This document shows, in pieces, positions 2,621 to 33,039 of a DNA stretch of 64,000 bases. Origin of the DNA: Pseudomonas viciae (lineage in GTDB: Bacteria > Pseudomonadota > Gammaproteobacteria > Pseudomonadales > Pseudomonadaceae); contig NZ_CP035088.1 in NCBI RefSeq assembly GCF_004786035.1, positions 3,818,001-3,882,000 on the forward strand. Reading direction: 5' to 3'. Below the pieces are notes generated by a model that did no database searches, was not told the DNA's origin, and was given only the letters and a program-made list of their open reading frames with translations. Position 1 is the stretch's first letter. Each line of letters starts with the position of its first letter. Made by a program: the position numbers and the translations under genes.

Positions 2621-3883
2621 TCAGCGGGCAAGGTCCGCCGCGATGGCACGCAGCATGCGCACGCTGTCCCCGTCGAACGGGCTGACGGCCTCGCTCAGCG
2701 ATGACTGCTTGACGATCACCACGCCGGAGGGTTTGTCGACGAACAGGTACTGGCCGTGAATGCCGCCGGCCATGAGTGCCTGGCTGTGGTCGTTGAAGAC
2801 GTACCACTGGCTGCGATAGGACGCGCCTGGGGTCCATGCCGCGAAGTCTGGGGACGTGACATAGATCGCCGGGTCGGCACCGGCGGCGATCCGGGGGATC
2901 GTCTCGCTCGACAGCAGTTGTCGTTCATCCTGACGACCATCGTTGGCCAACAGGCGACCGAAGCGCGCCATGTCTCGCAAGGTCGCACTGAAACCGGCAC
3001 CGGCAACGCTACGCCCCCAGGGATCGGCCATGAAGTAGCCGTCGCGCTCACAGCCCAATTGGCTCCATAGATCCTGCAGCAACCGGTCGCACGCCTTGCC
3101 GCTGGCGCGCTCCATCACCCAGGCCAAGGCTTCGGTGGTGGCGGTCACATAATGGAAGAAGCCACCGTGGCTGCCGCGTTTTTTCAGTGACGGCAGGTAT
3201 TGATACAAAGACTCGAACTGAGCGTACTGCGCCGGAGCTGGCTGGAAACCACAGGCGTAGCCGTACTGGGAGCTCTCTGAATCCGGATCCTCATAAACCT
3301 CGCTGTAATCGATGCCCACCGCCATGTCGAACAGTTGCCTGACCGTGGCATCGCCAAACGCGCTGCCCACCAGTTCCGGCACGTAATACGCGGCGGACAA
3401 CGTCGGATCCAGTACACCCTCACTGACCAACTGTTCGCCCAGGGTGCCGATCAGCGACTTGGTCACTGAAAACATGATGTGCCGGTCCTGGGGACGCTGG
3501 CCGTTGAAGTACCGTTCAAACAGCAGTGTGTCGCCTTGCAGCACCAGAAAGGCGTCGGTCTGGCTGGCGATCAGATGCTCGATCACGCTGATGCTCAAAC
3601 CCGACTCGCTGTCGAAGTGCAGCTCATCCAGCGGCCGAGGAGCCTGTTCAAACCGACTGATCGGCCCGCCCCCTGCCTGCACATCAATGGACGGACGCAG
3701 ACGCGCCAGGTTGCGAAACCCCCATTGATTGAACGGAGGTCGCATCCAGTTGCTCCAGGTAACGCGACGGTGTGGTTCGGCCGGAAAGCCTTGCATGAGT
3801 AATGGCGCGCTGCAGGTGTCGGACGGCGATTCAGTCGCCTCGACGTAAAGACGTGCCAACGAAGGCATGGTGTTCTGACTCAT
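2621..3883 (-). CDS. Serine hydrolase of the beta-lactamase / 6-aminohexanoate-dimer hydrolase type
   Basis: A 420-residue enzyme of the penicillin-recognising serine hydrolase fold. FSVTKSLIG supplies the SxxK nucleophile motif. HYVTATTEALAWVM is placed like the YxN-type second motif but has Thr in the third position, as in carboxylesterase/NylB-like members. AGGIHGQY matches the third, HxG-type motif. No lipobox or clear signal peptide is seen, so it is probably cytoplasmic. NylB-like members cleave linear amides or esters rather than beta-lactams, and an amide substrate would fit the neighbouring amine-type binding protein, but this is inference. The start at 3883 has AGGGGC upstream. It is the first gene of the leftward set; a 117-base gap separates it from the porin gene. 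Confidence 0.8.
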   Translation of the reverse strand: MSQNTMPSLARLYVEATESPSDTCSAPLLMQGFPAEPHRRVTWSNWMRPPFNQWGFRNLARLRPSIDVQAGGGPISRFEQAPRPLDELHFDSESGLSISVIEHLIASQTDAFLVLQGDTLLFERYFNGQRPQDRHIMFSVTKSLIGTLGEQLVSEGVLDPTLSAAYYVPELVGSAFGDATVRQLFDMAVGIDYSEVYEDPDSESSQYGYACGFQPAPAQYAQFESLYQYLPSLKKRGSHGGFFHYVTATTEALAWVMERASGKACDRLLQDLWSQLGCERDGYFMADPWGRSVAGAGFSATLRDMARFGRLLANDGRQDERQLLSSETIPRIAAGADPAIYVTSPDFAAWTPGASYRSQWYVFNDHSQALMAGGIHGQYLFVDKPSGVVIVKQSSLSEAVSPFDGDSVRMLRAIAADLAR

Positions 3884-31302: not shown

Positions 31303-32229
31303 ATGATTGCCAACCTCCCCCCGTTGAACGCCGTCCGCGCCTTCGCCGCTGCCGCTCGCCACCAGAGTTTCAGCCGCGCAGCCGAGGAGCTGCACGTCAG
31401 CCACAGTGCCGTCAGCCGGCACGTAAAGTTGCTCGAAGAGCGCTTGGGCGTGCCGCTGTTCGAACGTCGAACCCGCCAGTCCTTGCTCACTCCTGCCGGT
31501 CGGATTTTCTACGAGCAGGTCAGCGAGGCACTGACCCAGATCGCCAACGCCGCCACCGCACTGACTCGCAGTGCTGCCCAGCGCAGAGTGACCATTAACG
31601 TACGCCCCTCCTTCGCGGTGCGTTGGCTGATCCCACGGTTGCCCGATTTCATGGCGCGCCATCCGGACATCAAGCCTGACGTCGCCACCAGCACGCGGCC
31701 TCCCGATCCATCACGGGAACCGTTCGACGTGGTCATCCGTCGCGGGCACGCCGGCTGGTCGCCCTATGTACAGCCCACGGTGTTGCTGGAAGACGACCTG
31801 CTGCTGGTCGCCGCACCGTCGTTGCTGCAAAGCATGCCATTGGAAAACGTCCACGACCTGGCCCGGCACACCTTGTTGTCGGGCAGGACACGCAGCAGCG
31901 ATTGGCAAGATTGGGTGGAGCACGCGGGGATCGATCCATTGAACAACCTGCCGCCGCTGCAATTCGATCACATGCACCTCGTGCTGCAAGCCGCCGTCGA
32001 TGGCCTGGGCGTGGCGTTGTGTCCGGCTTCGCTGCTGGGCAGGGATTTGTCCAACGGGCGCCTGACCTGTCCACTGCCGTCGTTGCGTCTGCCGTTAGCC
32101 CGCTATTACTACGGGGTTTCCGGGGATGCGGTGGCTGAGACGCAGGTTTTTGTTGATTGGTTGCTGACCCATTGTGGGAGCGAGCTTGCTCGCGATGGCG
32201 GCGGCAGAACCAACATCTGCGCAAACTGA
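31303..32229 (+). CDS. LysR-family regulator (GcvA type) with a REP-encoded C-terminal tail
   Basis: A 308-residue regulator. The DNA-binding domain is PPLNAVRAFAAAARHQSFSRAAEELHVSHSAVSRHVKLLEERLG, followed by a GcvA/AmpR-like effector domain (FAVRWLIPRLPDFMARHPDI; AVDGLGVALCPASLL). GcvA-type proteins usually end soon after the QVFVDWLL helix. Here the frame runs on into a REP palindrome that encodes CGSELARDGGGRTNICAN, so the original stop was probably lost on REP insertion or mutation. It diverges from the LysE exporter gene and is its likely regulator. Confidence 0.85.
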   Translation: MIANLPPLNAVRAFAAAARHQSFSRAAEELHVSHSAVSRHVKLLEERLGVPLFERRTRQSLLTPAGRIFYEQVSEALTQIANAATALTRSAAQRRVTINVRPSFAVRWLIPRLPDFMARHPDIKPDVATSTRPPDPSREPFDVVIRRGHAGWSPYVQPTVLLEDDLLLVAAPSLLQSMPLENVHDLARHTLLSGRTRSSDWQDWVEHAGIDPLNNLPPLQFDHMHLVLQAAVDGLGVALCPASLLGRDLSNGRLTCPLPSLRLPLARYYYGVSGDAVAETQVFVDWLLTHCGSELARDGGGRTNICAN

Positions 32230-32254
32230 CGGACCGCTTTCGCAAGCAAGCTGA
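32175..32254. repeat. REP element with a degraded partner (REPIN remnant)
   Basis: GTGGGAGCGAGCTTGCTCGCG (key palindrome GCGAGCTTGCTCGC at 32180-32193) and a decayed opposite arm CGCTTTCGCAAGCAAGC at 32235-32251. The first arm lies inside the reading frame of the LysR gene. Confidence 0.7.
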
Positions 32255-32300
32255 CATACCCACTTGCCAAACCTGACGGCCGGACGTTAGTGTCAGCACC

Positions 32301-32369
32301 ATGAACCTGCCACAGTTTGCCTCGACCACCACGACCACGACCGCCAAGGCGGGTCGTGAGGTGTCGTGA
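32301..32369 (+). CDS. Threonine-rich leader peptide of a candidate transcription attenuator
   Basis: A 22-codon frame: MNLPQFAS, six consecutive Thr codons (ACC ACC ACG ACC ACG ACC, 32325-32342), then AKAGREVS and TGA. It is followed by mutually exclusive stems and a T-tailed terminator (see the terminator entry), which is the layout of amino-acid-biosynthesis leaders such as E. coli thrL. No strong ribosome-binding site precedes the ATG. A TTGCCA / TAGTGT pair (32264 and 32288, 18-base spacer) would start transcription about at the ATG, so it might be leaderless or transcribed from further upstream. It is too short for standard gene finding. Downstream genes are a cysteine hydrolase and a chorismate mutase, not threonine synthesis. 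Confidence 0.6.
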   Translation: MNLPQFASTTTTTTAKAGREVS

Positions 32370-32425
32370 GCCAATAACACACGTATCCCAAAGGCCCGCC
32401 AGTGATGGTAAGGGCCTTTTCTTTT
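32336..32425 (+). terminator. Attenuator: competing stems and intrinsic terminator after the Thr leader
   Basis: Stem 1:2 pairs 32336-32344 with 32349-32358 (one bulged G), overlapping the last Thr codons. The terminator stem pairs AAAGGCCC (32390-32397) with GGGCCTTT (32412-32419) and is followed by TTTTCTTTT. The alternative pairs GGCGGGTC (32348-32355) with GGCCCGCC (32393-32400): eight pairs including one G-U. It would break both other stems. Ribosome stalling at Thr codons would therefore favour read-through into the downstream genes. The terminator could also simply end the LysR transcript. Confidence 0.65.
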
Positions 32426-32462
32426 GCCCTTGTGTCACTGGCCCAAACGCAAGGAAAGCACG

Positions 32463-32981
32463 ATGCATGCTCTGTTGATTCTCGATATGCAGGTCGGGTT
32501 GTTTCATGGCCCGGAAAAACCCTGGGCCGGCGAAGCGCTGCTGGACACTTTGAATGGCTTGCTGCTCAAGGCCCGGAGGGCTGGAGCACCGATTTTCCTG
32601 GCGCGCCACGTCGGCCCACCTGGCTCGCCCATCGAACCAGCGAGTCCGTTGACGCAATTGGTGCAAGAGCTACGACTGGAAGGCGACGAGGTCATCTTCG
32701 AAAAAAGCCGCCCCAACGCTTTTGCCATGACAGACCTGGCCAATCGCTTGAAAGCCTGTGGCGCTGAAGGCGTGGTTATCACCGGCATGAAGACCCAGTA
32801 TTGTGTCGACAGCACCTGCCGTGCGGCCCGGGACCTGGGTTTCGATGCGGTGTTGATCGCCGACGGCCATACTTGCGCCGACACGTCTGAATTGACGGCA
32901 GAAATGATCATCGCCCATCACAATACAACCCTGGCTGGCCCCTTCTGCCGAGTCGTTTACGCTGAAGAGTGGAGTTTCTAG
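32463..32981 (+). CDS. Isochorismatase-family cysteine hydrolase
   Basis: A 172-residue hydrolase of the isochorismatase-like superfamily. ALLILDMQVGLF holds the catalytic Asp, EVIFEKSRPNAF the Lys, and VVITGMKTQYCVDSTCRAARDLGF the nucleophilic Cys, with the preceding cis-peptide region. A Cys nucleophile marks it as an amidase-type hydrolase rather than a true isochorismatase. DGHTCADTSELTAEMIIAHHN closes the domain. AAGGAAAG precedes ATG 32463. It lies directly downstream of the Thr attenuator and 58 bases before a chorismate mutase gene. Substrate unknown. Confidence 0.83.
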   Translation: MHALLILDMQVGLFHGPEKPWAGEALLDTLNGLLLKARRAGAPIFLARHVGPPGSPIEPASPLTQLVQELRLEGDEVIFEKSRPNAFAMTDLANRLKACGAEGVVITGMKTQYCVDSTCRAARDLGFDAVLIADGHTCADTSELTAEMIIAHHNTTLAGPFCRVVYAEEWSF

Positions 32982-33039
32982 TCCATAGCAGAGGATCGGC
33001 TCAAGCTGGGCCGTTCCTCTTCCACAAGGAGTGACCTAC

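Follow-up and report, generated by a model that had tools for sequence, protein, structure and literature searches.

A conserved threonine-codon leader, a probable ribosome-mediated attenuator, ahead of an isochorismatase-like cysteine hydrolase in Pseudomonas viciae

In the present study, we analysed a 64,000-nucleotide stretch of the Pseudomonas viciae genome (the window), in which a short reading frame with a run of threonine codons lies before a gene for an isochorismatase-like cysteine hydrolase. Conservation among relatives has settled that this Thr-run leader is a real, conserved coding element. Judged from sequence comparison, Thr-codon attenuation of some kind is very likely here, and the attenuation part as a whole, a ribosome-mediated attenuator sensing the charging of Thr-tRNA before the hydrolase, is likely. 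The mechanism class is already known, being that of the E. coli thr leader; new are the gene that is served, the probably leaderless leader, the extra helices that reach the ribosome site and the swap of the codon run between gene families.

The leader locus and its conservation

The features of the locus are collected in Table 1. The 22-codon frame with six Thr codons, the terminator and the alternative eight-pair helix, all proposed in the initial annotation of this DNA, are present as described there. In the 6.7 Mb genome, the pattern (ACN)6G has one forward match, which is the leader site, and no reverse match, and the reversed-pattern control gave 16 + 5. No second copy of the 241-base leader region was found in the own genome, where the region matched only itself and where the covariance model R1 likewise had one match. 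R1 scored 106.8 bits at the leader and 9.8 bits at the next place in the window, the window being among the 17 sequences from which this model was built. RNA folding of 32285-32425 displayed the terminator (-49.3 kcal/mol, z = -2.56, with 5 of 200 shuffles as good). A simple scanner run over 31500-33000 listed no promoter-like site and two other terminator-like sites (shuffles 0.3 and 1.4); the leader terminator is absent from this list, presumably because its 14-base loop exceeds the scanner limit of 8. Near the 3' end of a LysR-type gene, at 32173-32199, the window also carries GTGGGAGCGAGCTTGCTCGCGATGGC, which we take to be a REP-like sequence.

Table 1. Features of the leader and hydrolase locus (positions in the window)
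Feature	Position	Strand	Details
Promoter-like pair	32264..32293	+	-35 TTGCCA 32264-32269, 18-base spacer, -10 TAGTGT 32288-32293
Leader peptide ORF MNLPQFASTTTTTTAKAGREVS	32301..32369	+	stop TGA 32367-32369; without Shine-Dalgarno site, probably leaderless
Thr codon run, six in a row	32325..32342	+	ACC ACC ACG ACC ACG ACC
Helix 1:2	32323..32366	+	32323-32342 (Thr codons) with 32352-32366
Helix 2:3 (antiterminator)	32348..32400	+	32348-32355 with 32393-32400
Helix 3:4 (terminator)	32390..32425	+	32390-32397 with 32412-32419; inner CCA-GNRA-TGG 32399-32408; T-rich/U tract 32417-32425
Helix 4:5	32398..32442	+	32398-32405 with 32435-32442; 32410-32415 with 32426-32431
Helix 5:6	32428..32454	+	32428-32435 with 32447-32454; spans hydrolase Shine-Dalgarno AAGGA
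Isochorismatase-like cysteine hydrolase, 172 aa	32463..32981	+	PF00857; Asp8, Lys81, Cys114 invariant in 12 relatives
PchB-like protein (isochorismate lyase / chorismate mutase fold), 106 aa	33040..33360	+	optional; outside conserved unit

For the comparison, 108 upstream regions were collected: 66 loci found via the hydrolase protein, 20 from a genus search, 13 plasmid records, the window and 8 further loci from genus and class searches. The Thr run, whose conservation among relatives had been named as a check in the initial annotation, is kept in 95 of the 108 loci. All 95 belong to the 100 loci with a hydrolase identity of at least 48%, and no Thr leader was found before the distant hydrolase homologues (31-40% identity, 0/8 loci). 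Among the 100, the loci lacking a Thr leader are L033, in which the Thr run is deleted, L048, L058, in which the contig end cuts the region, L065 and L100; thus, the hydrolase is present and the Thr leader absent in 4 of the 99 loci with an uncut upstream region. The carriers belong to Pseudomonas, Delftia, Burkholderia, Paraburkholderia, Pantoea, Duffyella and Rahnella, those of Pseudomonas forming two clades with hydrolase identities of 63-100% and 51-58%. Removal of the near duplicates L006, L070, L071, L090 and L104, and of L109 with its hydrolase in pieces, reduced the 95 leaders to 89; L067 and L068, which duplicate the window region, had been excluded earlier. Alignments A3 (64 leaders) and A4 (20 leaders, read by eye) together cover 84 of the 89, namely all but the five Enterobacterales leaders, and A1, A5 and A6 used 23, 17 and 15 leaders. 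The folding and swap sets comprised 88 leaders, as L051 failed a script rule. A script rule that used the leader peptide and the identity of the protein defined the subgroups, whose names are our own.

Across the Ser-Thr6-Ala stretch of 64 relatives, the column entropy is 0.23, 0.23 and 0.79 bits at codon positions 1, 2 and 3, and all four third bases are used at each of Thr codons 1-3. The run differs in length by whole codons (+3 in L031, +1 in L042 and L045). Since the first two positions are held, the third base is variable (mainly in Thr codons 1-3) and insertions comprise whole codons, these findings indicate selection on threonine and not on RNA pairing alone.

In 78 of the 89 leaders, a -35/-10 pair with a spacer of 17 (48 leaders) or 18 bases (30 leaders) ends 6-8 bases short of the leader ATG; the accepted -35 variants were drawn up post hoc, after the sequences had been viewed. 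The Enterobacterales leaders make up 5 of the 11 without this register. A Shine-Dalgarno-like site precedes the leader ORF in just 10 of 89. From the register and the scarcity of such sites, transcription is expected to start at or within two bases of the leader ATG, which for the window predicts a start at about 32300-32301, and from this spacing we infer that the leader ORF is probably leaderless.

Competing helices and the proposed switch

The five named helices were counted on the 64 leaders of A3, with slid-pairing and 500-shuffle controls. In helix 1:2, 85.8% of cells are paired (17-50% when slid), and no excess of double changes was found in the 64 leaders; helix 2:3 is paired in 82.6% of cells (25-48% when slid), with no change on both sides in any of the 64. 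The eight-pair form of 2:3 is complete in about 35 of the 64 close relatives, is shortened or bulged otherwise, and loses pairs in the fluorescens-type subgroup. Helix 3:4 is 99.0% paired, and one of its pairs has gone from G-C to A-U in 9 of 64 leaders (9 double-changed cells). Helix 4:5, in which the loop and the 3' arm of the terminator pair with sequence beyond the U tract, has 91.3% of its cells paired; changes on both sides occur in 29 cells over 4 pairs, against shuffle values of 13.5 cells and 3.4 pairs. For 3:4 and 4:5, the double-changed cells and the covariation score both exceed all 500 shuffles, but neither the number of pairs with a double change (364/500 for 3:4, 215/500 for 4:5) nor that of further pair types (500/500 and 488/500), measures that are less sensitive to common descent, stands above them, so that the compensatory events may be few. 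On the covariation check proposed for three stems in the initial annotation, the pairing of leader stem and terminator is kept and the terminator has one double-changed pair; 2:3 and 1:2 show no double changes in excess.

Helix 5:6 is 90.8% paired with no double changes in the 64 leaders. When its strands were swapped between leaders, the native mean was -12.2 to -13.7 kcal/mol in five of six subgroups, and partners from another subgroup paired more weakly, except between the close Pseudomonas subgroups A1/A3, which are interchangeable. For the sister clade, the native value of -13.2 kcal/mol weakened to -10.0 on swapping within the clade and to -6.9 on shuffling, and the strands are also matched within the Burkholderia-type (two leaders) and Enterobacterales (five leaders) subgroups. 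In the nine putida/syringae-type leaders 5:6 is absent (-4.4 kcal/mol, weaker than -6.4 for shuffled strands). The Enterobacterales leaders form the hairpin without a U tract and have a strong ribosome-site hairpin (-12.2 kcal/mol), which suggests that control there would be translational.

Equilibrium folding of 88 leaders was carried out with a ribosome mask set at each codon. With the ribosome at the stop codon, the mean terminator probability was 0.99-1.00, and with the ribosome on the Thr codons it fell below 0.5 in 38 of the 88 leaders; for the window it was 0.28 with the ribosome at the fourth Thr codon. By subgroup, the terminator fell below 0.5 at some Thr codon in 21/28, 8/9, 2/2 and 3/5 leaders of four subgroups, and a Thr-codon stall disrupts it in just 2/26 fluorescens-type and 2/18 sister-clade leaders. 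With the ribosome stalled at the first Thr codon, the hydrolase ribosome site becomes more open by over 0.1 in 13/88. Masked folding was therefore rejected as proof of the switch, because it fits some subgroups and fails in the fluorescens-type and the sister clade, where it counts against the switch; kinetic folding could rescue these two, which have no equilibrium switch.

The proposed switch is as follows. Transcription would begin at the leader ATG, and the leader would be translated from its leaderless end. When Thr-tRNA is plentiful, the ribosome would pass the Thr codons and reach the stop codon with which segment 2 ends; formation of the terminator 3:4 would then halt RNA polymerase, while in read-through transcripts 5:6 would hide the hydrolase ribosome site. 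When Thr-tRNA is short, the ribosome would stall on the Thr codons and cover segment 1, so that 2 pairs with 3, segment 4 is left free for 5, and the ribosome site in segment 6 is exposed, with transcription and translation both on. Owing to the alternation of 1:2, 3:4 and 5:6 (off) with 2:3 and 4:5 (on), one stalled ribosome could both block termination and expose the ribosome site. The folding order and the response to Thr-tRNA are what we infer from these pairings, and the two helices beyond the terminator would make a cascade of transcriptional and translational control, which appears to be lost in the putida/syringae-type subgroup.

The hydrolase gene and the sister leaders

The hydrolase matches PF00857 with 112.8 bits (cut-off 27), and its fold matches 2a67, 3mcw and 8cib, as expected. 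D8, K81 and C114 are invariant in 12 hydrolase sequences, and we take them to be the Asp-Lys-Cys catalytic triad of isochorismatase-like cysteine hydrolases. The distribution of the gene is patchy: at E <= 1e-30 it was found in 116 of 298 genus genomes, both clades together, and a class-wide protein search with A2 found it in 4 of 369 genomes including the own, the other three without the leader. Relatives below 60% identity occur in 63 plasmid records, and 8 of the 13 such records that were read have the Thr leader and 5 do not (L100, L105-L108). Among the relatives, a streptothricin hydrolase label is found in a single source name (P0050).

The initial annotation had placed the attenuator before a pair of genes, hydrolase and chorismate mutase, and had pointed to a LysE/RhtB exporter 1 kb upstream. 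The PchB-like neighbour does pass the NCBIfam PRK07075 isochorismate lyase model (144.8 bits, cut-off 126), but only 5 of 67 loci have a chorismate-mutase-like gene behind the hydrolase (the window, L007, L010, L014 and L025), all of them Pseudomonas. The window and L025 alone have a close LysE homologue next to the unit, with flanks viewed up to 3 kb; L008 has a 39% LysE relative downstream. Neither gene travels with the leader over the 67 loci and both were rejected as parts of the system, so that the regulated unit is the leader with the hydrolase. What holds of that proposal is a Thr attenuator ahead of a non-threonine enzyme, since Thr run, leader stem and terminator are conserved. The nearest neighbours fall into 57 upstream clusters in 65 loci and 52 downstream clusters in 66 loci, a diversity that is an upper bound because the ORF script was crude. 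Leader and hydrolase appear to form a self-contained unit found in many different places. L156 and L215 have a Thr leader and terminator with no hydrolase directly behind and are perhaps remnants after gene loss. At 3001-3485, L109, a plasmid record labelled Pseudomonas silvicola, carries a Pantoea-like leader and a hydrolase match broken into three pieces. Plasmids of Pantoea are listed under the same replicon cluster, so this record may be mislabelled.

The leader design is modular, one form with Met codons standing before GNAT acetyltransferases and another, with nine Thr, before an MFS transporter. R1 had matches in 97 of 199 genus genomes, many of them distant from any hydrolase, and 40 of the matched places were fetched for reading. 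Nineteen of these are of a second kind, in which a Met-rich leader, typically MM...MTAxGGP, precedes a GNAT acetyltransferase (L149 360-547, L143, L151, L199 and others), with the same promoter register, a core GCC-NNN-GGCGGG and a similar terminator and ribosome-site hairpin. Met occupies the three core positions in 22, 24 and 25 of 27 distinct loci, a non-independent count, as 26 of the 27 were found via the leader. A search by the GNAT protein gave 35 places, of which 5 were not returned as loci. Among the 30 GNAT loci found by protein alone, 14 have a Met leader and 16 do not (L233, counted with a leader, is the same place as L155/L190), and the Met leader was thus rejected as a fixed partner of this family. 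The GNAT was also found in three plasmid records, one with a Met leader (Burkholderia) and two without. The Burkholderia leader lies 265 bases upstream of the matched GNAT start, against about 165 usually. Upstream of this Burkholderia GNAT, found by protein at 43% identity, MMCTMTAYGES is encoded, which implies that the Met codons survive long divergence.

The nine-Thr leader MNIFFVTTTTTTTTTAIGGPRGGCAL occurs before an MFS-family protein in two copies in one genome (L140 350-1819 and L141). This protein matches PF07690 with 108.9 bits (cut-off 33.4), and its best NCBIfam models, MdtH (41 bits) and YdeE (33 bits), score far under their cut-offs; no match to it was found in the other 148 of 149 genomes at E <= 1e-60 or in plasmid records at 1e-40. 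At about 330-500 of L213, a leader MTTQSRMHIIRSSIFAFGGA with all three core Met codons replaced by ATT (Ile) stands before a truncated GNAT; as the gene is truncated, decay and codon swap look alike, and the Ile leader may be decay. A strict pattern search for codon variants returned the Thr and Met types and one stray match (17 places in 16 of 298 genomes). Further R1 places among the 40, mostly weak, were set aside as ordinary terminators or leader remnants, as were weak R2 matches, and R1 with stricter filters in 229 class genomes gave the own genome and two weak matches, both ordinary terminators. The probable leaderless start, the two helices past the terminator and the Met-codon sister leaders go beyond the initial annotation.

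Alternative readings and possible function

Classical attenuators govern the supply of the amino acid that they sense, and the fold family of the hydrolase includes N-carbamoylsarcosine and other amidohydrolases; the enzyme might accordingly split an amide or carbamoyl conjugate to free threonine, or a precursor of it, when threonine is short. We consider such metabolic feedback unlikely, as the hydrolase is patchy in the genus, its neighbours differ between loci, and the genes behind the sister leaders (GNAT, and MFS in one genome) are not supply genes on their face.

In another reading, the switch works alike, but the S-T-T-T-T-T-T-A run is a trap for an antibiotic and not a meter of Thr-tRNA. 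According to excerpts of PMC8987054 and PMC12121999, drugs of the chloramphenicol and linezolid type stall the ribosome when the penultimate residue is Ala, Ser or Thr; Ser and Ala often adjoin the run, with Ala directly after it in 71 of 89 leaders, and the controlled genes are of detoxification type. However, Ala is the strongest trigger in the excerpt of PMC8987054, yet the runs of the 89 leaders, delimited by a script that tolerated single non-Thr residues, contain 553 Thr residues, compared with 32 Ser, 19 Ala, 14 Arg and 24 of other kinds. Six Thr would be needless for such a trap, and in the sister leaders it is Met codons that are conserved. With Thr so far ahead of Ala (553 to 19), and given the Met leaders, we regard a drug trap as rather improbable.

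That the Thr run arises secondarily from an ACC/GACC-rich strand needed for pairing with segment 2, in a simple terminator or small RNA, would agree with the fixed third bases of Thr codons 4-6 (62-64 of 64), which lie inside helix 1:2 (the leader hairpin), but is already disfavoured, and in our view very improbable, given the variable third positions of codons 1-3 with positions 1 and 2 held, the whole-codon differences and the retention of the frame in 95 loci including other bacterial families. Some alpha-proteobacterial leaders are short and leaderless. A leader peptide acting in trans, as reported for peTrpL of Sinorhizobium (excerpt of PMC7298713), would suit a short and probably leaderless ORF and is the least credible reading, since leader codons 2-7 vary freely (about 1.1 bits at each codon position) and the stop codon shifts between loci.

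Of the hallmarks of ribosome-mediated attenuators, the locus has a Thr-run leader ORF and an intrinsic terminator (the U tract is absent in Enterobacterales). Like the E. coli thr operon leader (RF00506), it combines a Thr codon run in a short ORF with predicted alternative hairpins and a U-tailed terminator, but a PF00857 hydrolase and not the Thr synthesis genes follows, the leader is probably leaderless, and the pairing extends through two more helices to the hydrolase ribosome site. The Rfam Thr_leader model aligned over its whole length but weakly (19.9 bits, E = 0.12, gathering cut-off 55); two other Rfam families scored slightly above it, all three were under their cut-offs, and no Rfam match at gathering score was found in the window. 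In inducible resistance leaders of the erm and cat type, a stalled ribosome frees the hidden ribosome site of an accessory gene, much as proposed here; in the present leaders the signal would be read through Thr (or Met) codons, and in Pseudomonas a terminator is added. In the toiL/topAI uORF of E. coli, stalling also controls translation and premature termination behind the uORF, but termination is Rho-dependent and, in the excerpt of PMC12121999, several ribosome drugs are sensed without Ala, Ser or Thr codons. The initial annotation knew of no described case, and we too found no prior description of these leaders in the open-licence literature.

The hydrolase, the acetyltransferase and the transporter have no evident shared metabolic role, but they are usual classes of detoxification genes, for which reason we favour an alarm function over amino-acid supply. 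The hydrolase would most likely remove a compound that is felt as threonine shortage, such as an antimetabolite of threonine synthesis or an inhibitor of threonyl-tRNA synthetase; a detoxification role of this kind is plausible, if short of probable. Streptothricin acetyltransferases are GNAT members, and natural inhibitors of threonine synthase exist. Thr, Met and Ile are all made from homoserine, so that homoserine-pathway inhibitors are one candidate class. ThrRS is the target of borrelidin and of obafluorin from P. fluorescens (excerpt of PMC10619133), and MccE acetylates aminoacyl-nucleotide synthetase inhibitors, as does RimL by unpublished data cited there (excerpt of PMC3817062). Streptothricin, a translation inhibitor, is inactivated both by acetyltransferases and by an isochorismatase-like hydrolase, SttH, which by description is of the kind encoded here; the excerpt of the review PMC11702664 doubts its natural substrate and mentions no SttH leader. 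We tentatively suggest, as a still bolder step, that modular, leaderless, amino-acid-coded attenuators guard detoxification genes and that the codon run names the amino acid cut by an inhibitor (Thr for the hydrolase and the MFS protein, Met for the GNAT). An antimetabolite or synthetase inhibitor of a rival would then cause starvation, and starvation would call up the enzyme or transporter that destroys, modifies or exports it.

If true, codon-run attenuation would operate outside amino-acid synthesis, as an alarm for accessory genes with transcriptional and translational control from a leaderless leader. It would also give a testable physiological trigger for an uncharacterised cysteine hydrolase family and a GNAT family, and knowing which amino acid is sensed narrows the range of substrates to look for in both. 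Overall, amino-acid shortage may serve these bacteria as an alarm for detoxification genes.
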